A stretch of 27,398 nt of DNA from a virus, in the IMG/VR virus record IMGVR_UViG_3300021373_002979, positions 1 through 27,398 of that record; one strand, given 5' to 3'. Below, one piece after another: positions 58-27,398 of this stretch (its first letter is position 1; the number at the start of each line of letters is the position of its first letter). Below the pieces are notes generated by a model. It did not search any database. It was not told where the DNA came from and worked only from the letters and a program-made list of their open reading frames with translations. The translations under genes and the position numbers were made by a program.

Positions 58-633
58 GTGACCAGCTCAAGCAAAGAACCAGCTTGGCAGAAAGAATTGG
101 ACATGGCCGTTCGTAAAGGCTGGATGACTCAGCAACAAACAGCTAGTAGTTTAGAAATAACGGTTAAAAGTTTTAATGAATGGCTGATACCGCACCGAGA
201 TAAAATAAACCGCAAAAAATACTACACGATGCGGGATATTCTCGATAACAGAATTGAGCACGAAAAACAGAAAATCGAGGAAAAATTCGCTGCTCAATTT
301 GCTGAAGAAGATTCGAGATCTTATCAAGAATTAAGGCTGACAAAAGCCAGAGCAAAACAGCTAGAAATTAAAAACGCTGTATCTGAAGGTAAGCTTGTAC
401 CCATCGAATTAATCACAGTGATACTATCAGAGCTAAGCGGAGAAATAGCCGGTTACCTAGATACTATCCCACAAAAAATGAAACGGCGTTACCCCGAATT
501 AGAAAGTCAAATGATAGAAGCTGTTAAGTGGCATATTGTGAAAGCAATGAATAATATTTCTGATATGAGTGAAGTTGTTGAAAGGGTTATTGATGACTAC
601 AACGATAGACAAGAGACGCACACGGCAGATTAA
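58..633 (+). CDS. Terminase small subunit (Nu1-like)
   Basis: Probable DNA-recognition subunit of the packaging terminase, 191 aa. The first 45 residues contain a helix-turn-helix-like segment (GWMTQQQTASSLEITVKSFN), as in gpNu1-type proteins that bind cos or pac sites. A charged, coiled-coil-prone middle follows (about residues 65-110), and the C-terminal part may be the oligomerisation or large-subunit contact. The GTG start at 58 is supported by GGGAGG at 45-50. The 3' end overlaps the large terminase gene by about 40 bp, which suggests translational coupling. The identification rests mainly on its position directly before a clear lambda gpA-type large subunit. The 57 bp upstream hold no gene that I can see; the DNA recognition site may lie there or beyond the window edge. 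Confidence 0.8.
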   Translation: MTSSSKEPAWQKELDMAVRKGWMTQQQTASSLEITVKSFNEWLIPHRDKINRKKYYTMRDILDNRIEHEKQKIEEKFAAQFAEEDSRSYQELRLTKARAKQLEIKNAVSEGKLVPIELITVILSELSGEIAGYLDTIPQKMKRRYPELESQMIEAVKWHIVKAMNNISDMSEVVERVIDDYNDRQETHTAD

Positions 634-4370: not shown

Positions 4371-6417
4371 TACCTTTTATGAGATTAAAGCGCAAGCCAA
4401 TAAAAACCCTGAAGTATGGTTGTATGGTTTTATAGGTAATTCAGTGTGGGACGACATAAATCCCAAAGCTTTGATTGAATCCATTAATGATTTGGATGTC
4501 AACGAAATTGACGTACATATTAATAGTGAAGGTGGTTCAGTTTATGGTGGGCATGCCATCTACAACGCTCTGAAGAACCATTCAGCTAAAATCAATGTAT
4601 TTATTGAAGGTTTAGCCGCTTCAATGGCCTCTATTATCGCTTTAGCTGGTGATAATGTGCAAATGGCTGAAAACGCGCTATATATGATTCATGATCCTTG
4701 GACTTGGGGCGAAGGTAACGCCGAAGAGCTGAGAAAGACAGCGGATAGGCTAGACAAGGCAAAAGAAACTTTAATCAATGTTTATGAGAGAAAAACCGGC
4801 ATTGACAGAGATCAAATAGCTTATCTTATGAGTGAAGAAAGCTGGTTTACTGCCAGCGAAGCCAAAGAACTAGGCTTTATTGATGAGATTACAGAGGAAA
4901 TTGACCTAGCCGCTTGCGCTAAAAACCTAACAAGTGATTTTTCAAGTTTAAAGAATACCCCCAAAAGTTTATTAAACGTTTTACATAAACCCACGCCGGA
5001 TACCGGCAAAACTGAAGAGGTGCAAACCATGGTTGATAAAGCCAAAGCGCCGGAAAAAACCGGCAAAGTTGAACCACAAGGCGCGGCGGTATCCGTTGAC
5101 GTTGAAGCTAAAGCAAAAGAAGCAGCTCAGGCCGCTTTAAAAGCTGAAGGCAAGAGACGTGAATCTGTAAAAGCCGTTTTCAAAGACTTTTCTGATTTTG
5201 GAAGCCTTGAACGTGAATGCTTGGATAATATGGAGTGTTCAGAATCTCAAGCTCAACAAAAGTTACTTAAGGCATTAAGCGAGAAACCATCTGAGCCTAT
5301 GGGTTTTTCTGTTCAGGTTCTCGAAGATGAGCGCGATAAAATCAAGGCAGGTTTTACGGCTGCCATGCTTGGTCGTTCAGGTTTGAAGAAAGACGATCAA
5401 TCAAACGAGTTTCGCGGTTACTCTCTTCAAGAAATGGCGCGTTATTGCTTGGAAAAATCAGGTGTTAACACTCGCAACATGCACAAGATGGAGCTTGTTG
5501 GTTCAGCAATGACTCACACGAGCAGCGATTTTCCAAACATCTTAAAGGATGTTATTAACAAAACAATGCTTAAGGGCTGGGATGAAGCGCCGGAAACTTT
5601 CCAGCAGTGGACTTCAAAAGGGATCTTGACGGATTTCAGAGAGGCTACGCGAGCGGGTATCAATAGTATCTCTTCACTTCCAGCGGTTTCAGATGGTGGT
5701 GAGTATAAGTATGGCACTGTCGGCGATCGAGGCGAGACAATCCAGCTTGCGACTTACGGTAAGCTTATTTCTCTTACTCGACAAACAATTATTAACGACG
5801 ACCTTGGAGCATTTACTAAAGTGCCAATGATGATGGGTCGAGCGGCGCGCCGAACTATCGGTAACTTGGCTTATGCTGTTTTAACTGCTAATGCGGCTAT
5901 GGCTGATGGTACAGCGCTTTTTCATGCTGACCATGCCAACCTTGGTGCTGCTGGAGCGCTTGCAACCGGAACTATTGACGAGCTCAGAAAGTTAATGGCG
6001 GTTCAGAAGGATAAAGACGCGAGCGCGGGAAGTGTTGCTAATGTTTCAGCGCTCGGTATTACCCCTTCATTCTTGTTAGTTCCTGAAGCGCTTCGCGGTA
6101 CTGCCATAGCTGTGATGGAGTCTGAAACAAGAATTGCATCAGGACAAAACAACAGTAAATATCCGAACAGCGTTCGCAATATTGCTTCAGTTATTTCTGA
6201 TGCTCGGCTTGATGCGGATGGTGCGACAGCCTACTACCTGGTTGCTAACCCTGCTCAATTTGATACTGTCGAAGTTGCATACTTGGATGGCGTTGAGGCT
6301 CCATATCTTGAGCAAAAAGACGGTTGGAGTGTAGACGGCTCAAGCTTCAAGGTTCGTATTGACGCAGGAGTCAAAGCGCTAGACTTTAGAACCATGGCGA
6401 AGAATGCAGGCGCTTAA
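4363..6417 (+). CDS. ClpP-type prohead protease / major capsid protein fusion
   Basis: One 684-aa polyprotein combines three functions that are often separate genes. Residues 1-185 are a ClpP-like serine protease: substrate strand INSEGGSVYGGHAIYNAL, nucleophile Ser87 in GLAASMAS, and His110 in MIHDP. The usual third acidic residue appears to be Glu159. Residues 190-300 are charged and Ala/Lys-rich, as in scaffolds. From about residue 310 to the end is a capsid protein of the HK97 type (GEYKYGTVGDRGETIQL, LTRQTIINDDLGAF, ADHANLG). The protease would digest the scaffold and release capsid protein during head maturation. An in-frame ATG at 5029 (Met223) has its own GAGG ribosome site and could make protease-less scaffold-capsid chains. 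Protease/MCP fusions of this kind are known in phages. Confidence 0.93.
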   Translation: MINTFYEIKAQANKNPEVWLYGFIGNSVWDDINPKALIESINDLDVNEIDVHINSEGGSVYGGHAIYNALKNHSAKINVFIEGLAASMASIIALAGDNVQMAENALYMIHDPWTWGEGNAEELRKTADRLDKAKETLINVYERKTGIDRDQIAYLMSEESWFTASEAKELGFIDEITEEIDLAACAKNLTSDFSSLKNTPKSLLNVLHKPTPDTGKTEEVQTMVDKAKAPEKTGKVEPQGAAVSVDVEAKAKEAAQAALKAEGKRRESVKAVFKDFSDFGSLERECLDNMECSESQAQQKLLKALSEKPSEPMGFSVQVLEDERDKIKAGFTAAMLGRSGLKKDDQSNEFRGYSLQEMARYCLEKSGVNTRNMHKMELVGSAMTHTSSDFPNILKDVINKTMLKGWDEAPETFQQWTSKGILTDFREATRAGINSISSLPAVSDGGEYKYGTVGDRGETIQLATYGKLISLTRQTIINDDLGAFTKVPMMMGRAARRTIGNLAYAVLTANAAMADGTALFHADHANLGAAGALATGTIDELRKLMAVQKDKDASAGSVANVSALGITPSFLLVPEALRGTAIAVMESETRIASGQNNSKYPNSVRNIASVISDARLDADGATAYYLVANPAQFDTVEVAYLDGVEAPYLEQKDGWSVDGSSFKVRIDAGVKALDFRTMAKNAGA
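5029..6417 (+). CDS. Possible nested scaffold-capsid product from internal start
   Basis: ATG at 5029 lies in frame with the protease-capsid gene and is preceded by GAAGAGGTG at 5014-5022, a good ribosome site at normal spacing. Translation from here gives a 462-aa protein that lacks the whole ClpP-like domain and starts at the scaffold-like charged segment. It would be analogous to lambda Nu3, which is translated from inside gene C. Many more capsid than protease copies are needed per head, so such a start would solve a stoichiometry problem. No promoter is needed. This is an inference from the start context and domain boundary. Confidence 0.45.
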   Translation: MVDKAKAPEKTGKVEPQGAAVSVDVEAKAKEAAQAALKAEGKRRESVKAVFKDFSDFGSLERECLDNMECSESQAQQKLLKALSEKPSEPMGFSVQVLEDERDKIKAGFTAAMLGRSGLKKDDQSNEFRGYSLQEMARYCLEKSGVNTRNMHKMELVGSAMTHTSSDFPNILKDVINKTMLKGWDEAPETFQQWTSKGILTDFREATRAGINSISSLPAVSDGGEYKYGTVGDRGETIQLATYGKLISLTRQTIINDDLGAFTKVPMMMGRAARRTIGNLAYAVLTANAAMADGTALFHADHANLGAAGALATGTIDELRKLMAVQKDKDASAGSVANVSALGITPSFLLVPEALRGTAIAVMESETRIASGQNNSKYPNSVRNIASVISDARLDADGATAYYLVANPAQFDTVEVAYLDGVEAPYLEQKDGWSVDGSSFKVRIDAGVKALDFRTMAKNAGA

Positions 6418-6508
6418 TTAGTAGTATTTTTTAAGGGTTTGGCCGTGAAACAAAAAGCGGTCATTCCCACCTAAACCAAATTTAATTTATATATGGAGGT
6501 CATTAACA

Positions 6509-6871
6509 ATGGCTACTAACTATGTTCAAGAAGGTAATATTGTCGAGTTTACAGCGGGTGCCGCTTATAGCTCTGGTGATGTTGTTGTGATTGGCGGCTT
6601 GCTTGGTGTTTGTCTTGCTGATGTTGCCAATGGTGCGGTTGGTCAAGCCCAGGTGTCAGGAGTTTTTACACTTCCTAAAGTATCGGCGGCCGTTATAGCA
6701 GCTGGTGAGCGCGTCCAGTGGGATGCTAGCGCTACTGGCGTTGAAGATGCAGCGGCGACAGCGGCCAGCGGCGACCTTGTTAATTGTGGTATTGCTATGG
6801 AAGCAGCTGGAAATGGTGTAACTGAAATTGACATTTTATTAAATGTTTCAGGCGCAACTATCACCGCTTAA
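6509..6871 (+). CDS. Capsid decoration protein (DUF2190-like)
   Basis: A 120-aa, Ala/Gly/Val-rich beta protein directly after the capsid gene, which is the usual place for a head-stabilising cement protein. The pattern MATNYVQEGNIVEFTAGAAY, then SGDVVVIGGLLGVCLADVANG, resembles DUF2190/capsid-cement proteins, in which beta strands alternate with Gly turns. The ribosome site is strong (GGAGG at 6495-6499, ATG at 6509), consistent with high expression. The preceding 91-bp intergenic stretch shows no clear terminator or promoter. Confidence 0.85.
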   Translation: MATNYVQEGNIVEFTAGAAYSSGDVVVIGGLLGVCLADVANGAVGQAQVSGVFTLPKVSAAVIAAGERVQWDASATGVEDAAATAASGDLVNCGIAMEAAGNGVTEIDILLNVSGATITA

Positions 6872-6893
6872 TAGATAAGAGCGATTTAATACC

Positions 6894-7178
6894 ATGTTTG
6901 AAGAGGATTTCACCGCATTTTTCAATACTGAAGAGCACGCCGACCATATTATTGTTCAGCGTAGCGGTGAAATCATCCATGGTATAATAGAGAAAGAATA
7001 CATTGAAACAAATGATATAAGCGGTTATAAGCCGGTTTTAATATGTCAAAGCAAAGAGCTAGAGAACGTCAAAAGAGGCGATATTCTAGAGCTTGGTAAA
7101 ACTTTGTATAGATTTATTAATAGTGAGCCTGACGGCACAGGTGTAAGTCAGTCAATGCTGGAGCTAATAAGCGACTAA
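6894..7178 (+). CDS. Head-tail joining protein, lambda FII-like
   Basis: A 94-aa protein in the head-tail connector region. The part LENVKRGDILELGKTLYRF...PDGTGVSQSMLEL lines up with the FII pattern (RRGDTLTIG...FWVDRVSPDDGG...LWL) in lambda gpFII. Such proteins cap the filled head and provide the site where the finished tail docks. The stop and the next start overlap by one base (TAATG). The family assignment is by motif memory and position. Confidence 0.75.
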   Translation: MFEEDFTAFFNTEEHADHIIVQRSGEIIHGIIEKEYIETNDISGYKPVLICQSKELENVKRGDILELGKTLYRFINSEPDGTGVSQSMLELISD

Positions 7179-19024: not shown

Positions 19025-19052
19025 AGGGTAGCAATAGCTACCCTCTTTTTTT
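19025..19052. terminator. Terminator between converging transcripts
   Basis: GGGTAGC (19026-19032) and GCTACCC (19037-19043) form a perfect 7-bp stem with loop AATA. On the + strand TCTTTTTTT follows. On the - strand a less pure T-rich stretch follows, so it may also serve the helicase gene that ends at 19051. Confidence 0.85.
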
Positions 19053-20700
19053 ACACCGCCTCTCTTTCTGGCTCTTCCTCAAGCTCTTCTTTATCTTCTT
19101 TTTTCCACTCCCTATCAATTACTTTTGTAAAATTACCCTCTTTTGTGTAGTCAATATAAGTTGGCGAGTTACCGGTATTCATTAACTTACTGAGTTCTGT
19201 CAAGTCTTTAGCGTTGTTTACATCTCTACTATCTAAACCGCTTTTGTATGCTATCAACTTGATTTTATCAATTGCGATTTTTCCAGCGTAGCCGCCATGG
19301 GTGACAGGAAAATATTCGGTTATTGGCTTTTGATTCATTGCGCCATAATAAGACACTTTTATCATCTCTTTACCGCTAGACCTGCTAACATGAGTTGACC
19401 AAAACCAGTTGGTTGTAACCATCAAATAACTGTCAGTTTCACCCATTATGCAAGCTGTATTATCTATAGAGTAGCGCTTCTCCTCTCCGATAAATTCAAA
19501 ACCGCACGAAGTACACTTTTTAACTGATGCGTGTAATATTTCGTTGCATTCGGGACAATCTTTAGTTGGCGCTTCTCCCTTTTCCTTTTTTGTGTTTTTC
19601 TTGGGTTCTCTAACGTTAACTATAGGACCATGGCGGGTTATGTTGCCAGCAAAATCTAAAACCAAGCAGTGATCAGTATGGCTTTTTAGCCTCATTCCAC
19701 GGCCTACCATTTGAACATATAGGGCGGGTGACATAGTAGGGCGAACCAGCGCTATTAGATCGATATCAGGATAATCAAAACCGGTGGTTAATACGTTGGC
19801 ATTGGTAAGCGCTTGGATCTTTCCGGCTTTAAAATCTTCAAGTATTCTTTCCCGCTCTTTTTTACTTGTCTTACCTGTTATTACTTCAGCCACTATTCCA
19901 CGATCTATTAACAATTCTTTCATCTCGCTAGCATGATCTACCCCAGTGCAGAAAAATAGCCATGCTTTTCTACTTTCAGCTCTATTTATAACCTCTTCAA
20001 CAACGGCTACATTGCTTTCATACGTGTTCACAGCTTCTTGCAGCATACTCTCTATGTATTCACCGCCACGCTTTTTAACATTGTCAACATTAAGTTTGTG
20101 GCCGGTTCGCTTGCTCTTTAATCTTGCTAAATAATCCTGATCTATCAATTCTTTTATTGTTATTGGTTCAATAATATCATCAAAAAGGGCGGTCCCTTCA
20201 GTTATCAAGCCGTGCCCTAATCGGTAGGGTGTAGCTGTTAACCCAATTATTGATAATAGCGGGTTCAACTCTTTCAGCTCATCAATTAAAGATCGATAAG
20301 ATCCTTCTTCTTTATGTGATATCATGTGGCACTCATCGACTATAATAAAATCAATATGACCTAATATATCGGATTTACTTCTTATTGATTGGATACCGGC
20401 AAACGTGATCTGGTCACCGATATCTTTACGACCAACACTAGCGCTATAAATTCCAACCGGCGCGGTTGGCCAATGCTGCCTTAGCTTTTCGTAATTTTGC
20501 TCGATCAGCTCTTTTTGGTGAGTAAGCATTAAAATATTTAACTCAGGTTGCGCTTGTAACAAATGTTTACATAGATTAGCTACTATGTGACTTTTACCGC
20601 TACCCGTTGCCATTTTTAAACAAAGATTATTACCTAAGTTCGAGCCGATCCACTCACTAGTTAAATCAATTGCCTTTTGCTGGTAATCCCTTAATCTCAT
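19051..20700 (-). CDS. DEAD/DEAH-type SF2 helicase with zinc finger
   Basis: ATP-dependent helicase of superfamily 2, type III restriction/UvrB-like family, common in phage recombination modules. Motif I is ATGSGKS (31-37), motif II DECH (122-125), motif III TAT (155-157) and motif VI QMVGRGMR (330-337). A four-Cys zinc finger follows (Cys382, 385, 396, 399). The C-terminal 120 residues hold a DUF-like domain (KEMIKVSYYGAMNQKPITEYFPVTH) seen in phage helicases of this kind. Last gene of the minus-strand recombination operon, directly behind the nuclease gene. Probably unwinds recombination or replication intermediates. Confidence 0.92.
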   Translation of the reverse strand: MRLRDYQQKAIDLTSEWIGSNLGNNLCLKMATGSGKSHIVANLCKHLLQAQPELNILMLTHQKELIEQNYEKLRQHWPTAPVGIYSASVGRKDIGDQITFAGIQSIRSKSDILGHIDFIIVDECHMISHKEEGSYRSLIDELKELNPLLSIIGLTATPYRLGHGLITEGTALFDDIIEPITIKELIDQDYLARLKSKRTGHKLNVDNVKKRGGEYIESMLQEAVNTYESNVAVVEEVINRAESRKAWLFFCTGVDHASEMKELLIDRGIVAEVITGKTSKKERERILEDFKAGKIQALTNANVLTTGFDYPDIDLIALVRPTMSPALYVQMVGRGMRLKSHTDHCLVLDFAGNITRHGPIVNVREPKKNTKKEKGEAPTKDCPECNEILHASVKKCTSCGFEFIGEEKRYSIDNTACIMGETDSYLMVTTNWFWSTHVSRSSGKEMIKVSYYGAMNQKPITEYFPVTHGGYAGKIAIDKIKLIAYKSGLDSRDVNNAKDLTELSKLMNTGNSPTYIDYTKEGNFTKVIDREWKKEDKEELEEEPEREAV

Positions 20701-20705
20701 TTTTC

Positions 20706-21740
20706 CTAGCCTGTAATTGTTGCGTTAAATTCGCTTCTTAAAGCCTGAGTGAAGCTATCTTCTTTCGCGCATGCTTTCGGATTAGCTATTATTTCGCTGC
20801 TCTTTAATCCGTTTTCACCATTGCATACCTCTTTACCTTCAATCAAATAGGTAGCCGTGTTTTCATCTTTTCCTTCTTTTAGCTGCCACGGTACAAGGTC
20901 AGGGTGTAGAACGTGAGAAGGGCAGCCTTTTAACTGCTGATTATTTGGTATTGTGCTTTGCCAGCGCTCACAAAAAAAAGTATTATCTTCTTTTGGTGTT
21001 GCTCTAGCGCACGTCCTACAATTCACCTCTTTTGTTGTTTTTGAGCCATAACAAAAATCATGAGCAGCGCACATTTTGCACTGATACCATGTGCTATCGG
21101 TTTTAAATGGCTCGGGTATGCGCTCGGACATTGCTATTCTTTTAGCTCTACCTATGTATTTTTCTTTAAAAAATTTGGCTTCTTTCTTTTTTAGCTTCAC
21201 TCTTTCGGTGTACATTCTGTCATCGTTTTTACATACAGCAACATATAGAGCGCGATCTATTCCAGATGATTCCATGTAAACTTGCATTTGCGCGTAATGC
21301 ATCGGTTTTGACTCTTCAACACCTTTTCTAATCAAATCCTGAAACGATTTTAGGTTGTGTGTTTTGGCTTCTAATATGTGTTTTTTGTTTGGAGCATCAG
21401 GTACGCCGCTTTTTATAATACCGTCTAGCGAGCCGGAAACGTGAGAGCCTAGATTAACTCTATACTGATTATATTCACCAGCGTTTTCTATTTCTAACCC
21501 TATAGCGCGCAAGTCATGAACTATTGTGTGCTCTTCATTGTGCCCACGCCTAAACAATCTTAACATTCTACCTTCAAATCGCTCTATAACAGACCACCTG
21601 AATGAAAGCCAGAGCCAACGATCACAATCGTGGCCGCATTGAGATAGACCAAAGTGATAGCGCGGTGGTTCTTGTTTGTCTTCATGATGTTTATCAATCA
21701 TGCCTACAATTGTATTGATAGGTTGCTCTAGCTCTGTCAT
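20706..21740 (-). CDS. PD-(D/E)XK nuclease, Cas4/exonuclease-like
   Basis: A 344-aa nuclease. The catalytic pattern is GSLDG (Asp106), LEAKT (Glu124, Lys126) and Q-x3-Y (Gln151/Tyr155), as in RecB-type/lambda-exonuclease-fold enzymes. Several Cys pairs follow in the C-terminal half (221/224/230, 241/244, 257, 273), suggesting zinc or iron-sulfur binding like Cas4. It probably resects DNA ends for annealing by the Sak4-like protein. It lies between the SSB-like gene and the helicase in one operon. Confidence 0.85.
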   Translation of the reverse strand: MTELEQPINTIVGMIDKHHEDKQEPPRYHFGLSQCGHDCDRWLWLSFRWSVIERFEGRMLRLFRRGHNEEHTIVHDLRAIGLEIENAGEYNQYRVNLGSHVSGSLDGIIKSGVPDAPNKKHILEAKTHNLKSFQDLIRKGVEESKPMHYAQMQVYMESSGIDRALYVAVCKNDDRMYTERVKLKKKEAKFFKEKYIGRAKRIAMSERIPEPFKTDSTWYQCKMCAAHDFCYGSKTTKEVNCRTCARATPKEDNTFFCERWQSTIPNNQQLKGCPSHVLHPDLVPWQLKEGKDENTATYLIEGKEVCNGENGLKSSEIIANPKACAKEDSFTQALRSEFNATITG

Positions 21741-21757
21741 TTGCTGTATAACTCCAT

Positions 21758-22000
21758 TTATTCGGATGAAACAAAGTAAGAAAAGTGATTATGTTTTGAA
21801 ATAGTCATACCTGTTATTACACACAGTAATTCTCGACGATTAACAGCCATTTCTACAAACTCTTTGTGGTCAGGCTCAATAATTAATAACACTTCTTCAT
21901 CTTCTTTCATTTTATCTGCGAACTCATGAGCTTTTTTTAGTTCATGCAGGCTTATAATGTGACCTGAATCCCTTTTGACAATCTTGAATATATTTTCCAT
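21758..22000 (-). CDS. 80-aa hypothetical protein
   Basis: A small protein starting at ATG 22000 with an AAAGGGA ribosome site, in the recombination operon. It is alpha/beta-looking (IFKIVKRDSGHIISLHELKKAHEFADKM, EVLLIIEPDHKEFVEMAV) without a motif I recognise. A hairpin (22027-22047) lies in the gap upstream. Role unknown; context suggests DNA metabolism. Confidence 0.65.
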   Translation of the reverse strand: MENIFKIVKRDSGHIISLHELKKAHEFADKMKEDEEVLLIIEPDHKEFVEMAVNRRELLCVITGMTISKHNHFSYFVSSE

Positions 22001-22026
22001 TTAGATTTAATCCCTTTGCTTTGTTA

Positions 22027-22047
22027 AGCCCTCCAATAAAGAGGGCT
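22027..22047 (-). terminator. Intergenic hairpin, weak terminator or attenuator
   Basis: AGCCCTC (22027-22033) and GAGGGCT (22041-22047) make a perfect 7-bp stem with a 7-nt loop in the 66-bp gap between two operon genes. On the minus strand only TTAACAA follows, so termination would be partial at best. It may lower expression of the three downstream genes or protect the mRNA end. Confidence 0.4.
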
Positions 22048-22066
22048 GTATTTAAAAAATTTACCT

Positions 22067-22657
22067 CTAAAATGGTACATCATCATCGAAATCAGTTGGT
22101 TGTTGTTGGGGTTGTGTTTGTTGCTGAGGGGTTGCCCACGCTGGTACACTACTATTATTTTGCGGTGGTCTTTGCTGCTGGTTTTGCTGTTGCTGTGCTG
22201 GCATTGCGGATTGTTGCGGCATAGATGAGGCGATAGGCATTGAAGTTTTAGACGGTGAATCCACTAGTGATTTATAACCCTTAACCTCATTCCCATCACC
22301 ATATTGTTCATCTTTTTTAACAGTCACTTTTATAGATACATTACCACCTATCAACTGATCAGTGTCAGTTAGCGAATTAATGCCAAGCGCGCTAATTAAT
22401 GCGTTTATCTGTTTTAATCCTATTTCTTGCGCTTTTGGGTTTTGGTGGATGTAGTTGATTATTGTAAAAAGCTTTCGTCCTTGGTGAGTGGGACCATTCA
22501 CCGAAAAACGTATATTAATATATTTTCCAGTGCCGGAGTTGTTGTCCTTAACTTCTGCTTCTTCAATGACTGCATCATACCAGCCAGCCGGAAGCGGATC
22601 GAAATTATCTGCTTGTGGTAGGTCTTGTTGATTCAATGTAGCGTTTAATAGTGCCAT
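22067..22657 (-). CDS. DUF669 protein with SSB-like acidic tail
   Basis: A 196-aa protein. The N-terminal domain (FDPLPAGWYDAVIEEAEVKDN, GKYINIRFSV, GRKLFTIINYIHQNPKAQEIG) follows the DUF669 pattern, associated with single-stranded DNA binding in phage recombination modules. Residues 140-185 are a Gln/Pro-rich disordered linker. The end is FDDDVPF, nearly identical to the acidic tip of bacterial SSB (DDDIPF) that recruits partner proteins. It probably coats single strands during replication and annealing. Confidence 0.85.
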   Translation of the reverse strand: MALLNATLNQQDLPQADNFDPLPAGWYDAVIEEAEVKDNNSGTGKYINIRFSVNGPTHQGRKLFTIINYIHQNPKAQEIGLKQINALISALGINSLTDTDQLIGGNVSIKVTVKKDEQYGDGNEVKGYKSLVDSPSKTSMPIASSMPQQSAMPAQQQQNQQQRPPQNNSSVPAWATPQQQTQPQQQPTDFDDDVPF

Positions 22658-22709
22658 GTTTAATTACCCTTTAGTTTAGTTTATGTAAATTACTGCTTGT
22701 TACTCTCTA

Positions 22710-23111
22710 TTACTCTTCAATTAACTCTATTTTAAACCCCGGTTTGCTCGGCTTAGAAGTGATAGCACCGCTTAATCTATCTGTTATCTCTTCGCTTGCC
22801 GCTTTCCAGTCTTTCATTTTTAAATCTGCTTTCCATTTAAAAAGATGTTGGAGCGTTGTGTAATCAATCTCATACTCCATTGCTATTTCTTGCAGCAACT
22901 CAGTATCAACTTTTCGACTATGTTTAGTTGTTACTACTATTTTATAACCCCCCTGTTTTGTTGTGCTTGATCCCTCTTTGTTTTGATCGATTTCTAGCAG
23001 CTGTTCAAGCTCTTTTTCGATTAATACCCGCTCATCTTTTGCGAGCTTTTCAACTGCTTTTTGATCTAGCCATCTTGCAGATAGTGCCTTTATTTTGTCT
23101 TTGTCTATCAT
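22710..23111 (-). CDS. 133-aa hypothetical recombination-operon protein
   Basis: A protein between the Sak4-like ATPase and the DUF669 gene. The N-terminal half is helical (KALSARWLDQKAVEKLAKDERVLIEKELEQLLE), followed by GGYKIVVTTKHSRKVDTELLQEIA and a second helical part. This pattern (helix, short beta hairpin with KHSRKVD, helix) is common in phage operons of this type as an uncharacterised partner. It overlaps the ATPase gene by 4 bp (ATGA), which suggests a matched amount. No catalytic motif seen. Confidence 0.7.
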   Translation of the reverse strand: MIDKDKIKALSARWLDQKAVEKLAKDERVLIEKELEQLLEIDQNKEGSSTTKQGGYKIVVTTKHSRKVDTELLQEIAMEYEIDYTTLQHLFKWKADLKMKDWKAASEEITDRLSGAITSKPSKPGFKIELIEE

Positions 23112-23785
23112 TGATTTACCCCTTGTATCTTGTTAATGATATTACCCAAATGCGGCGGCTCCCATGTGTTTAACTTTCCGCTTCTATCTTTAGCGGTCCA
23201 CAATCCGTCACTTTCAGTTAATAGCATTCTGTTAACGCTATTTTCGTTTTTCTCAACTCGAAAGGCTAAAACTTCATCAAAGAAGTAGGGTAAACCTTGG
23301 CTTGATTTGTTCCCAGGCATGGAGGGGTAATATAGTAACCGGCCTTGTTCGTCTTTTGCTTTCTCAAGCTTGGCTGTCATATAGACGTGCTTGCCTGGAA
23401 TATCGCGGAAGTTACGAATAATGCTAGATACCTGATCCTGCATTTCTCCATATGCTTGTCGTGGGTCTTTTGACTCCTTTTTCTCTGCTGATAAAACAAC
23501 CTCTCCAATTTCCGATATTGAATCAATAGCCACGCTTTCAAATTGAGCTGACTCTTGCGATTTTGTCAGCCACTCATAGGCCTCTATTAAATCTGTCATA
23601 CTTTTAATTTCAATGTAAGGTAGCTGATAGTCACTAATAGATAATAGACCGCCTTCAGCGCTTAGAATAATTGGGCTGGGTAGTGTTGCTATGCCCGTTG
23701 TTTTACCTGCTCCCGACTCACCATAACCCAAAAGATTTACTTTTTTGTTTTGCGTGTCAGAGGTTGAATGTATTTGTATTGCCAT
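23108..23785 (-). CDS. AAA ATPase, Sak4-like single-strand annealing protein
   Basis: A 225-aa RecA-core ATPase of the phage nucleotide-binding (AAA_24) group, to which Sak4 single-strand annealing proteins belong. Walker A is GESGAGKT (22-29) and Walker B is VAIDSIS (Asp88). GKHVYMTAKLEKAKDE and FFDEVLAFRVE are typical of the family. It would anneal or pair DNA strands coated by the DUF669 protein, after resection by the nuclease. First gene of the minus operon, with an AGGAG ribosome site and a promoter about 70 bp upstream. Confidence 0.88.
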   Translation of the reverse strand: MAIQIHSTSDTQNKKVNLLGYGESGAGKTTGIATLPSPIILSAEGGLLSISDYQLPYIEIKSMTDLIEAYEWLTKSQESAQFESVAIDSISEIGEVVLSAEKKESKDPRQAYGEMQDQVSSIIRNFRDIPGKHVYMTAKLEKAKDEQGRLLYYPSMPGNKSSQGLPYFFDEVLAFRVEKNENSVNRMLLTESDGLWTAKDRSGKLNTWEPPHLGNIINKIQGVNQ

Positions 23786-23902: not shown

Positions 23903-24094
23903 ATGGAAATGTGTAAAAAAGTTAAGATTGATTCTGAATTGATCAAACGCAAGCTTTCAGATCGAAATATAAGCGAAGTGGCAAAAGGTGCAGAATTAAG
24001 CGCTCAAACACTGTATAATTTTTTAGCTGGACGAAAAATGTTAGGAGGTAATAGCACTAACAAACTGGTGAACTACTTTTTAAATAATGGGTAA
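23903..24094 (+). CDS. Small HTH regulator (Cro-like)
   Basis: A 63-aa DNA-binding protein of the XRE/Cro type: ELIKRKLSDRNISEVAKGAELSAQTLYNFLAGRKMLGGNSTNKLVNYF. The helix-turn-helix is SEVAKGAELSAQTLYNFLAG and there is little else, so no room for a cleavage or inducer domain. It probably binds the operator just upstream and sets the balance between its own transcription and that of the recombination operon. GGAGC precedes ATG 23903; an ATG two codons on is an alternative. Confidence 0.85.
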   Translation: MEMCKKVKIDSELIKRKLSDRNISEVAKGAELSAQTLYNFLAGRKMLGGNSTNKLVNYFLNNG

Positions 24095-24169: not shown

Positions 24170-26212
24170 ATGGCAAAACTAGAAACACCAATACGATTAG
24201 TTAAAGAAGTTGTTGAAATTAAAAAGAGTGCTGAAGAGCAGATACACAACCTATTTTTAGATTCACCTTTAGACAATCACCCAGCCCAACATGAAATAGT
24301 TATTGATAGTAAAATACATCGCTTTAATAGTGATACTAAAAAGGGTAAGAAAAACGGCTGGTATATATTTAGTCGTGATGCTGATTGTGTTCACGGTTCA
24401 TTCGGGTGCTGGAAACGTGATTTCACCTTCAATTTTAAAGAGGATACCGGTAAAAATTTAACACACGAGCAGATAGCAGAAATTGAAATAAAAAGAGCGG
24501 TGCTAGAAGGGGAGAAAGCAGCGTTGAAAGCGCGACAGGATGAAATAGCAAGAAAGAGCGCGGATAAAATATGGGAGTCATGCGAAGAGGCTAAAGAGCA
24601 TAGCTATCTAACGAAAAAAAGAATAGAGGCGCATGATTGCAGATTGACCGTCGGTGATGGCCGATTAGTGATTCCTATGTTTGATACTAATTTAAAATTA
24701 GCGGGATTACAGTATATTGATAGCAATTCAGAAAAAAGATTTTTAGGTAGCCAGCAAAATAAGATTCATTGTGTCGGTGACCCGTCTAATTCTGATTTAT
24801 GTTATATAGCTGAGGGCTACGCGACAGCCGCGACAATTTACGAGCAGACTAAAAAAGCGTGTTTTGTCGCATTTAATGCTGATAATTTAATAAATGCAAC
24901 CCGTATAATAAAACACAATTTTAAAGATTTGAAGATTATTAATGTTGCTGATAATGATAAAGCCGGATTAAGAATGATTGACGCGCTTAACGTTGAAGAA
25001 ATTGATTCCATTTTAATTCCAATCGAGGGGATGGATGCTAACGACTATTATTGTGCTGGTAAAGATTTAAAAGGCCTGTTAGATGGTGTTGGGCAACCCA
25101 GAAACCCAATGGGTTTGACATCGCTAAAAGATCTTAAAAAGAATAGAAAGCCGATAAGGTGGCTGGTTAAAAATTGGTTGCAGAGAAAAGCGCTTGTTAT
25201 GATTCACGGACCGAGCGGAGCGGGTAAAAGTTACGCGGTTTTAGATTTATGTATGAGGCTTTCGACACCTGGTTTTGATGATTGGGCAGGTAACACGGTT
25301 AAAAATGGAAATGTGGTTTATTTAGCTGGTGAAGGTAATGAAGGTTTATCTATACGTGCGGAGGCGTGGGAAACCAAATTTAAAAAAGAGGAGGTTGATA
25401 GTAATTTATGGATATCAGATCGAGGGTGTGGTTTAAACACGACAACCGGCTATTCTGAAGTAGTAGAGAGTTTAGATAAAAGTGGTATTAGTCCAGATTT
25501 AATAGTAGTCGATACGCTCCATAGATTCTTGGAGGGTGACGAGAACAGCTCAAAAGATGCAGCTACTATGATAGCCGCTTGTGATAAGCTCAAAAATGAT
25601 TATGATTGCACTGTTATTTTAGTGCACCATACTGGCAACAGTTTAGAAACACAGCATAGGGCGAGAGGTTCGACTAGCTGGAAAGCTGCGATGGATGGAG
25701 AGATCAGCATTAAGCCGATTGGTGACGGTCAAATAGAGCTAATACAGCGTAAAAACAAAGAGTTAGGTAAATCTGTGGAGCCGGTTTTGATGGAGTTTGA
25801 GAGCGTTGAAATACCCTTCTTTTTTGATGAGGATGGTGAGGTGGTATCAAGCTCTATTTTAAATGTTGCCGGAAATCAGAATAAGAGAGAGCGAAAAACG
25901 AAGGATAAAAAGCTGGTTGAGTATAGCCAAATTTTGCTAGATGCAGCGCTTGAAATTGCCGAGCCAGAGCGCGGAGATGATGGTTTAATAAACGGTTATG
26001 TAATGCAGAGTGGCGCTATTATTGATTATTTGGTAGCCGAAGGTTATGCCGGTAGCGCTAGTGTGGCTCGAAATATGACCAGTCCGCGCGGCACTAAGAT
26101 GTTTGGCATGCTATCCAGCTCTGGAATAGTGACGCAACCGAAAAAGCGATATTGGAGAATAATAGATCAAGAAATAATCACACAGATAAATCTAGCCAAA
26201 CAGTCTAAATAA
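24170..26212 (+). CDS. Toprim primase / RepA-like helicase
   Basis: A 680-aa replication protein that joins a primase and a hexameric helicase. The N-terminal region has a CDS-like HRFNSDTKKGKKNGWYIF segment and Cys73/Cys80 of a possible zinc site. The Toprim domain has YIAEGYATA (Glu215) and ADNDKAG (Asp261, Asp263). The RecA-type helicase has Walker A GPSGAGKS (347-354), LAGEGN, Walker B LIVVDTL (Asp448) and LVHHTGNS (His486/487), as in the RepA/AAA_25 group. The C-terminal 120 residues look like a winged-helix DNA-binding domain. Directly downstream is the iteron region, its probable target. AGGGA precedes ATG 24170. Confidence 0.92.
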   Translation: MAKLETPIRLVKEVVEIKKSAEEQIHNLFLDSPLDNHPAQHEIVIDSKIHRFNSDTKKGKKNGWYIFSRDADCVHGSFGCWKRDFTFNFKEDTGKNLTHEQIAEIEIKRAVLEGEKAALKARQDEIARKSADKIWESCEEAKEHSYLTKKRIEAHDCRLTVGDGRLVIPMFDTNLKLAGLQYIDSNSEKRFLGSQQNKIHCVGDPSNSDLCYIAEGYATAATIYEQTKKACFVAFNADNLINATRIIKHNFKDLKIINVADNDKAGLRMIDALNVEEIDSILIPIEGMDANDYYCAGKDLKGLLDGVGQPRNPMGLTSLKDLKKNRKPIRWLVKNWLQRKALVMIHGPSGAGKSYAVLDLCMRLSTPGFDDWAGNTVKNGNVVYLAGEGNEGLSIRAEAWETKFKKEEVDSNLWISDRGCGLNTTTGYSEVVESLDKSGISPDLIVVDTLHRFLEGDENSSKDAATMIAACDKLKNDYDCTVILVHHTGNSLETQHRARGSTSWKAAMDGEISIKPIGDGQIELIQRKNKELGKSVEPVLMEFESVEIPFFFDEDGEVVSSSILNVAGNQNKRERKTKDKKLVEYSQILLDAALEIAEPERGDDGLINGYVMQSGAIIDYLVAEGYAGSASVARNMTSPRGTKMFGMLSSSGIVTQPKKRYWRIIDQEIITQINLAKQSK

Positions 26213-26312
26213 TCTAAATTTACTAACCGATGACTTCAGCTACTACTAAAAACAGCTAAAAAGTAGCTTTTCCCTTCAAAACGTTGAAAAGTTAATCAAA
26301 ATAAGGCTGTTT

Positions 26313-26367
26313 TGTGATAGCACATCGCTCCAAATCATCGGACTTTAGTGCTAAAAAGTGACTTCAG
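26313..26367. repeat. 55-bp direct repeat, copy 1
   Basis: Begins TGTGATAGCACATCG and ends with AAAAAGTGACTTCAG. It matches 26516-26570 at 53 of 55 positions (two A/G changes). Each copy ends in an iteron. Confidence 0.95.
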
Positions 26368-26389
26368 CACTTTTGCGATGACTCCAGCA

Positions 26390-26411
26390 AAAAAGAGCCT
26401 GAAAACAGGCT
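26390..26411 (-). terminator. Minus-strand terminator in the origin region
   Basis: AGCCTG (26396-26401) and CAGGCT (26406-26411) form a 6-bp stem with a 4-base loop. On the minus strand CTTTTTT follows. It would stop leftward transcripts that start in the right part of the origin. Confidence 0.6.
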
Positions 26412-26446
26412 AATATTTAATCAAAACGATTAATAAATGATCAAAA

Positions 26447-26463
26447 GTGACAATTTTTGTCAC
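26447..26463. repeat. Inverted repeat GTGACAA-TTT-TTGTCAC
   Basis: A perfect 7-bp inverted repeat with a 3-nt loop, just left of an inverted iteron. It may be a protein-binding site or hairpin in the origin. Confidence 0.6.
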
Positions 26464-26515
26464 ATGAAGTCATCGTTTCGTAACGGTGATTACGAAACTC
26501 AATTTCAGTTTTTAC

Positions 26516-26570
26516 TGTGATGGCGCATCGCTCCAAATCATCGGACTTTAGTGCTAAAAAGTGACTTCAG
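26516..26570. repeat. 55-bp direct repeat, copy 2
   Basis: Second copy of the segment at 26313-26367, 203 bp to the right. It runs straight into the 21-bp tandem iterons. Confidence 0.95.
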
Positions 26571-26633
26571 ACCCCAAATCGATGACTTCAGACCCCAAAT
26601 CGATGACTTCAGACCCCAAATCGATGACTTCAT
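26560..26633. repeat. 21-bp tandem iterons
   Basis: Three full units (26560-26580, 26581-26601, 26602-26622) and a fourth partial one (26623-26633). The unit begins GATGACTTCAGACCCC; the first copy differs in its first two bases. There is no variation or spacer between units. A 21-bp period equals two helical turns, so bound proteins would line up on one face of the DNA. Confidence 0.95.
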
Positions 26634-26669
26634 AATTATCGGTGATTACGAACCCTGAAGTCATCGCTA

Positions 26670-26695
26670 CTACCCCCTCTCTATAGAGGGGGTAG
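26670..26695. repeat. Strong hairpin at the right edge of the origin
   Basis: CTACCCCCTCT (26670-26680) and AGAGGGGGTAG (26685-26695) form a perfect 11-bp stem with loop CTAT. It sits between an inverted iteron and a CGGTGATTAC repeat. No T run follows directly, so it is more likely a cruciform or single-strand initiation site than a terminator. Confidence 0.85.
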
Positions 26696-26782
26696 CGGTG
26701 ATTACAGGGACGGGTTTTTATAGTTGTTTTTTTTAAACAATGATGCCAATGTGAAATTACATTTTACTCATTACTTCTCTTG

Positions 26783-26972: not shown

Positions 26973-27380
26973 ATGTCTGATAAATTACCAAATTTCAAAA
27001 AGCTGCCAAAACTGAGTAGGCTAGAAGAGCTTTTCTCGTATGATCCCGTGTCTGGAAAGGTCTTAAGAAAGATATCCACGGGAAAGGGGAAGAAAGGTTC
27101 TTTTGCTGGACATATAGACGACAGGAGGGGGCTTAGGATTGGTATTGATGGTTTCAAGTATCTTTTACATAGAATAGCTTGGAAGATGCACTATGGAAAA
27201 GATCCTGATGATTATATTGTTTTTCTCAATTCTGATATTTTTGATCTTAGAATAGATAACATGGCTTTAGAGTCTAAAGCAAAAAGAAGAAGCAAAAAAA
27301 GAAAGCGCGATGAGTCGAAAGATAATATAAAGCCAGTGGCGCGCTTTAGTGCTGAAATATTAGTTAGCGGTAGATTATGA
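26973..27380 (+). CDS. HNH-family protein lacking the catalytic histidine
   Basis: A 135-aa protein with the layout of phage HNH endonucleases: LEELFSYDPVSGKVLRK, then GFKYLLHRIAWKMHYGKDP, then the core IVFLNSDIFDLRIDNM. The usual core reads (V/I)DHINGDxxDNRIxNL. Here the DH pair is VF and the DNR Asn is Leu, so the metal-binding and catalytic residues look lost, although the HRIAW His (residue 66) remains. It may be DNA-binding only. The C terminus is very basic. AGAGG precedes ATG 26973. It ends in an ATGA overlap with the next gene. Confidence 0.7.
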   Translation: MSDKLPNFKKLPKLSRLEELFSYDPVSGKVLRKISTGKGKKGSFAGHIDDRRGLRIGIDGFKYLLHRIAWKMHYGKDPDDYIVFLNSDIFDLRIDNMALESKAKRRSKKRKRDESKDNIKPVARFSAEILVSGRL

Positions 27381-27398
27381 GCATAGAGGTTATTTTGA
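27377..27398 (+). CDS. Start of a further gene (cut by window end)
   Basis: ATG at 27377 overlaps the stop of the preceding gene (ATGA) and opens MSIEVIL before the window ends. Too short to identify. Confidence 0.45.

Follow-up and report, generated by a model that had tools for sequence, protein, structure and literature searches.

An iteron array behind a Toprim-RepA-type primase-helicase gene as the probable replication origin of a tailed phage

We propose that the noncoding region directly behind the primase-helicase gene of this phage is its replication origin, and that the product of this gene recognises it, through a C-terminal winged helix and a set of iterons. From sequence comparison, we put the probability of this reading at about 85%. 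The window analysed was the full length (27,398 bases) of one IMG/VR virus record, which contains lambda-type terminase, portal, tape-measure and lysis genes. An original prediction, made from the letters of this DNA, had described the region as an iteron-type origin, and the comparison with related loci supports that description, since the array lies behind the gene throughout the family and is exchanged together with the C-terminal domain of the protein. The features of the region and of the gene before it are listed in Table 1.

Table 1. Coordinates of the array, the gene before it and the upstream regulator gene in the 27,398-base record.
Feature	Position	Strand	Remark
Small Cro-like regulator gene	23903..24094	+	Weak PHROG transcriptional-regulator match; equivalent position in relatives; upstream of primase
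Primase-helicase gene, 680 aa	24170..26212	+	Toprim_3 aa 212-296; RepA/AAA_25 helicase aa 318-490; C-terminal winged helix (predicted)
C-terminal domain aa 575-680, predicted winged helix, putative iteron-binding domain	25892..26209	+	AlphaFold2; class tracking; swaps
Putative recognition helix and flank, aa 627-642	26048..26095	+	Top excess mutual information with motif class; model helix aa 630-636
Noncoding putative origin region, whole	26213..26760	.	548 bp, directly behind primase-helicase stop (26212)
Iteron CGATGACTTCAG	26228..26239	+	
72-nt duplicated unit, copy 1	26296..26367	+	Copy 2 at 26499-26570, 86% identical
Weak iteron-like site CCGATGATTT	26331..26342	-	Motif model
Iteron GTGACTTCAG	26358..26367	+	
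Iteron variant CGATGACTCCAG	26376..26387	+	
AT-rich gap between two iteron sets	26388..26463	.	72% AT; candidate melting region
Iteron CGATGACTTCAT	26464..26475	-	
Iteron CGGTGATTACGA within palindrome TTTCGTAA-CGGTGA-TTACGAAA	26476..26497	+	
Weak iteron-like site CCGATGATTT	26534..26545	-	Motif model
Iteron GTGACTTCAG, unit 1 of 21-bp tandem	26561..26570	+	
Iteron, 21-bp tandem	26580..26591	+	
Iteron, 21-bp tandem	26601..26612	+	
Iteron, final unit of 21-bp tandem	26622..26633	+	
Iteron CGGTGATTACGA	26640..26651	+	
Iteron on left side of hairpin	26655..26666	-	
Hairpin CTACCCCCTCT-CTAT-AGAGGGGGTAG	26670..26695	.	Between oppositely oriented iterons
Iteron CGGTGATTACAG on right side of hairpin	26696..26707	+	
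T-rich tract past last iteron, second candidate unwinding element	26715..26738	+	Sequence

The two repeat motifs in the array share the consensus CGRTGAYTWC, and CGATGACTTCAG and CGGTGATTACGA are forms of this single word, which has 11 strict sites, or 12-13 with near matches, in both orientations. The original prediction had counted at least nine copies in both orientations, and these are present: six exact copies of GATGACTTCA (four on the plus strand and two on the minus strand), one GATGACTCCA at 26377 and two GTGACTTCA at 26358 and 26561. The tandem of four copies with a spacing of exactly 21 bp (starts 26561, 26582, 26603 and 26624) and the three repeats of CGGTGATTAC (26484, 26640 and 26696) were likewise found as described. 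The 548 bp contain TGAAGTCA 8 times, while the most frequent 8-mer of any other 548-bp window reaches 4 (257 windows of the record), and 1000 dinucleotide shuffles gave a mean of 2.2 and a maximum of 7; for CGATGACTTC, 6 occurrences compare with maxima of 2 in the rest of the record and 3 in the shuffles. Within the 27.4-kb record, the motif cluster is unique to the array. No ORF of at least 50 aa spans the array, and a search of Rfam gave no match.

The 80-bp gap between the two iteron sets has an AT content of 72%, against 60% for the record, and the two 72-nt copies show that an internal duplication occurred in the array. The hairpin, which had been noted as very stable with an 11-bp stem, is a perfect stem (26670-26680 paired with 26685-26695) closed by the loop CTAT, and none of the 258 control windows of the record held one as good. 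A switch of GC skew across 26213-26760, which had been suggested as a check, was not found in this record: the skew drops from positive values ahead of the array to zero within it, is positive once more at the record start, and reverses sign near 15.5 and 23.7 kb in step with gene orientation.

The gene whose stop codon immediately precedes the array had been called a Toprim-RepA type, and its Pfam domains, PF13362 Toprim_3 and AAA_25, agree with this; no Rep_3-type initiator is among its Pfam matches. In an alignment of six sequences, the active-site residues expected of both enzymatic domains are invariant, namely the acidic Toprim residues E215, D261 and D263 and the Walker A residues G347, G350, G352 and K353. 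The only PDB sequence relative of the profile was RSF1010 RepA (1g8y, E 3.1e-7), and the best overall Foldseek match of the whole-protein model was T7 gp4, with 1g8y at a TMt of 0.68. For the last 106 residues, AlphaFold2 predicted a winged helix with a mean pLDDT of 92.7 and a helix at residues 630-636. The matches from a fold search with this C-terminal model were no more than generic winged helices (Z at most 7.4, Foldseek E 5e-3), and therefore we name no family for the domain; the C-terminal structure of P4 alpha was not among the matches listed.

Neither a single-sequence search of viral contigs for close relatives of the protein nor blastn among phages for close relatives found any. A profile search, built on an alignment, of viral contigs and bacterial genome contigs retrieved 160 loci, about 85 of which had usable full-length genes, and these about 85 viral and MAG loci form the compared set. 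Among named phages, the nearest proteins are 38-41% identical and belong to the Alteromonas phages PB15 and XX1924, the Idiomarinaceae phage 1N2-2 and the Salicola phage CGphi29. In these four phages the genes of the replication and recombination module stand in a common order, and each carries an array directly 3' of its primase gene, with the words GGTTCAY, GGTACAY or GGGGACA. Most of the about 89 relatives with enough downstream sequence likewise possess an equivalent array directly past the end of the homologous gene. In nearly all of the about 85 loci, a word of 6-8 bp recurs 5-13 times, in both orientations, within the 300 bp past the stop codon, and fewer copies occur in most control windows of each locus. 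Over 83 loci, the density of the word is 24.0 sites/kb behind the gene, compared with 0.23 upstream of it and 0.27 elsewhere, a contrast that measures uniqueness and not chance because the word was picked from the stretch itself. A few relatives, among them L011, L013, L024, L035 and L087, have no clear array behind the primase-helicase gene, and their origin may lie elsewhere.

The words are specific to lineages and fall into about 18 classes, a sorting that preceded inspection of the C-terminal alignment of all loci. Many classes repeat a fixed layout around a gap, for example --+++ on each side of it in the GGGTCA class, and in 54 of 66 loci the gap between the iteron sets has a higher AT content than the locus as a whole. 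Within this family the array of our record is atypical, in that it is longer (480 bp), has the 21-bp spacing and is the sole member of its motif class. A search of other viral contigs for pairs of its own iterons found no array and only three exact-pattern matches, all in coding DNA of unrelated phages and with neither an array nor a primase match. We also considered reading its motif as GAAGTCA, kin to the GGGTCA class, with which it shares an 'RNM' helix in the C-terminus; this was dropped because the motif would then be inverted relative to the hairpin, and the motif was left as a class of its own.

A strong hairpin is found in 78% of the loci and in 20% of the control windows. In 84% of cases it ends in TTTA, TATA or a similar tip, against 0% of control hairpins, by a list of tip forms compiled after these hairpins had been viewed, and its 5' arm is rich in C in 55 of 58. 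The stem sequences vary widely across loci while pairing is retained; because the hairpins were picked for pairing, the evidential weight rests on their enrichment and not on the kept pairing. The C-rich 5' arm and the TTTA, TATA or TTA tip are kept across word classes, and the stem sequence changes with the cassette (for example, L015 at +109..133, L064 at +109..138 and L059 at +109..141). In the relatives, mean AT content is highest some 50-100 bp past the tip of the hairpin. A priming signal, a dyad and a terminator are candidate roles for the hairpin.

An HNH endonuclease gene (26973-27380) follows directly 3' of the putative origin region, ahead of the terminase end of the record, and its product could be an HNH protein associated with cos or a homing endonuclease adjacent to the origin. 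At the record ends (1-57 and 27381-27398), the HNH gene stands at one side and the small terminase at the other; this gene order suggests a complete genome of 27.4 kb, circularly closed or permuted, and no terminal repeat of at least 10 bp was found at the ends. In this record the array is flanked by the primase gene and the HNH-terminase end, with the HNH gene and the small terminase placed as in cos regions, and it might be a cos/pac packaging site bound by the small terminase. However, in PB15 and XX1924 the array is not next to the small terminase gene: it stays behind the primase, although the terminase lies about 5-6 kb away. In addition, the motif tracks the C-terminus of the primase, as described below. 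We therefore regard a packaging function as very improbable. On the other side of the primase, a recombination module on the minus strand (19051-23785) encodes a helicase, a Cas4-type exonuclease, an SSB-like protein, a DUF7173 protein and a Sak4-like protein; it is transcribed divergently from the Cro-primase operon, and this synteny is kept in PB15, XX1924, 1N2-2 and CGphi29.

Returning to the proposed origin, the class of the word follows the C-terminal domain of the protein. Identity in the C-terminus predicted a shared word with an AUC of 0.885, against 0.68-0.76 for the other protein regions, and in a partial matrix correlation controlling for all other regions, the C-terminus alone was significant (r 0.29, 0 of 2000 permutations). 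The alignment columns most informative on the word are residues 627-642, which overlap the predicted helix at 630-636. The association between array and C-terminus could in part be physical linkage, though the signal peaks at the recognition helix. The most likely reader of the array, judged by these comparisons, is the protein's own C-terminal domain. The suggestion in the original prediction that a winged-helix-like C-terminal part could be the iteron binder thus gains support, since the motif tracks that domain alone and a winged helix is predicted there with high confidence.

The exchange of the array is seen in contigs that are 90-95% identical over kilobases and differ in a block formed by the last 62-104 codons of the primase and the array, with the motif changing along. 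Among close pairs with the same word, 127 were colinear through the region and none was broken. Close pairs with different words were broken in 40 cases, 39 of them at 188-358 bp before the stop codon and one at -2175, and in 26 of the 40 a similarity of 82-97% returns downstream of the stop codon, in most cases right after the array. In the pair L069/L076, for example, identity is 95.4% up to -188, the block is replaced, and identity is then 94.8% over 2275 bp from +166/+213. In another case, L071 has the backbone of L018 (helicase 99%), whose motif is GGTAAC, while its C-terminus is 91% identical to that of L039 and comes with the AGGGGGC word of L039, whose backbone is only 70% identical. 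The pattern occurs in at least 4 independent backbones. Assembly chimeras are an unlikely source, since contigs of different samples share the same junctions (for example, L012 and L021 versus L043, L051, L052, L055 and L065). In L026, the primase ORF seems truncated or interrupted around 6300-7150, and some 350-420 bp past its stop codon comes a stretch like the end of the L014 coding sequence; the L014/L026 pair is to be discounted because the reading frame of L026 looks disturbed. Colinear pairs with different words (n=28) are all GGTAAC versus CGGAAC, two classes in which the recognition helix mostly reads SAKQY versus SAKVY, and this points to word change by mutation too. In the wider family, domain and array thus appear to travel as one cassette, and because they move together, the motif would be private to each lineage.

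The swaps also bear on the possibility that the repeats are not an origin but operators, bound by a transcription regulator such as the Cro-like protein whose gene precedes that of the primase. This regulator gene is conserved in relatives, and short inverted motifs can serve as operators. However, the 500 bp upstream of the primase gene show no enrichment of sites (the 0.23/kb given above), and in the pair L059/L069 the upstream 4.7 kb remain 90% identical although the motif changes, which makes the Cro-like protein an unlikely reader; we give operators very little credence. A third possibility is that binding of the primase-helicase to the array serves copy-number control, partition or autoregulation, while replication starts elsewhere. 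P4 uses two elements, ori and crr, so that a second element besides the origin has a precedent, and the iterons of plasmids also function in control. Against this stand the single cluster of the motif in the record and the finding that PICI and pRN1 elements at this position act as origins in tests, and we consider such a role, with the origin elsewhere, unlikely.

If the array is the main origin, as we favour, initiation may proceed as follows. The C-terminal winged helix would bind iterons of 10-12 bp through the helix at residues 630-636, and multimers would form on both iteron sets. The AT-rich stretch between or beside these sets would then melt, the attached RepA-type ring helicase would be loaded onto the melted DNA, and the Toprim domain would prime synthesis. 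As a guess, the hairpin between head-to-head iterons, with its TTTA/TATA-type tip, may act as a dyad for two rings or as a single-strand priming signal like the ssi hairpins of RSF1010.

For an entire group of tailed phages, those with T7-gp4/RepA-like primase-helicases, this reading predicts a replication origin and the domain that would read it, and the origin could be located simply by inspecting the sequence behind the gene. The natural domain swaps provide matched pairs for the study of origin privacy, co-infection exclusion and satellite escape, and a data set for the recognition code of winged helices. More tentatively, and with less than even confidence, we suggest that these phages, most of them uncultured, form a large group whose origin code is private and diversifies fast. 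A cassette of C-terminal winged helix and iterons would be exchanged between phages and also altered by mutation, giving the about 18 specificity classes, under selection by satellites, origin-directed nucleases or co-infecting relatives. If this is true, the pairs amount to a natural catalogue in which recognition residues of winged helices are matched with their DNA words. A literature search found no description of this phage system, which is not proof that none exists.

Several known systems share parts of this organisation. In PICIs, the origin follows the initiator gene directly on its 3' side and has an AT-rich region flanked by two iteron sets, a layout described as particular to phage-inducible islands and termed unique to PICIs among known bacterial replicons (PMC6092414). 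The SaPI Rep helicase reads iterons directly downstream of its own gene via its C-terminal domain, and the C-terminal domains of SaPI Rep and SCCmec Cch2 are precedents with tested function (PMC7581432). In our phage, too, an iteron cluster lies immediately 3' of the putative initiator gene, two sets of short iterons flank an AT-rich stretch (as in 54 of the 66 loci, not all), and a C-terminal domain of the helicase would recognise the iterons, as in SaPI/PICI (PMC6092414, PMC7581432). The origin called 'plasmid-like' in the original prediction is better termed 'PICI/SaPI-like or P4-like'. Unlike in these islands, the initiator is not of the SaPI Rep / D5-like Pri-Rep helicase family; its helicase is RepA/AAA_25 (RecA fold), is fused to a Toprim primase, and occurs in autonomous tailed phages with a conserved hairpin. 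The presence of a PICI-type layout on an unrelated helicase in autonomous phages therefore suggests convergence or domain capture.

T7 gp4, which the whole model of the phage protein resembles most, is not known to have a C-terminal winged helix or an iteron array. P4 alpha contains an SF3 helicase and a C-terminal winged helix and acts on iterons. Passages of PMC4234260 describe Toprim primase, helicase and origin-repeat binding in one polypeptide for P4 alpha with ori/crr; the phage protein likewise joins a Toprim primase (PF13362 Toprim_3) to a helicase and ends in a predicted winged helix that would bind the origin repeats, whereas its helicase is of the AAA_25/RepA type. With RSF1010 RepA/RepB'/RepC, the phage shares a helicase domain homologous to RepA (1g8y), with a RepA-like RecA-fold core, and the combination of iterons with hairpins (ssi), the latter according to passages of the same source (PMC4234260). 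In RSF1010, however, these functions lie on three separate proteins, and RepC, not the helicase polypeptide, reads the iterons. The origin of pRN1 lies directly behind orf904, which encodes a primase-helicase also ending in a winged helix; its function has been tested, and a sequence-variable core lies between conserved flanks (PMC4234260), as in the phage. ORF904 differs in its AEP prim-pol and SF3 helicase, and its origin has a stem-loop without iterons. In the PLE elements of V. cholerae, the DNA-binding domain of the initiator RepA and the origin are exchanged as a module, apparently under pressure from an origin-directed nuclease (PMC8263062), though this initiator is of the RepA_N type with an N-terminal binding domain and serves a satellite, not a self-sufficient phage. 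The Rep_3/RepA/TrfA initiators of iteron plasmids differ from the phage protein, which is not of the Rep_3 type. On sequence and structural models, the phage system would work like those of SaPI/PICI, pRN1, P4 and PLE while belonging to none of them, with a helicase related to RSF1010 RepA and a whole-protein model closest to T7 gp4.
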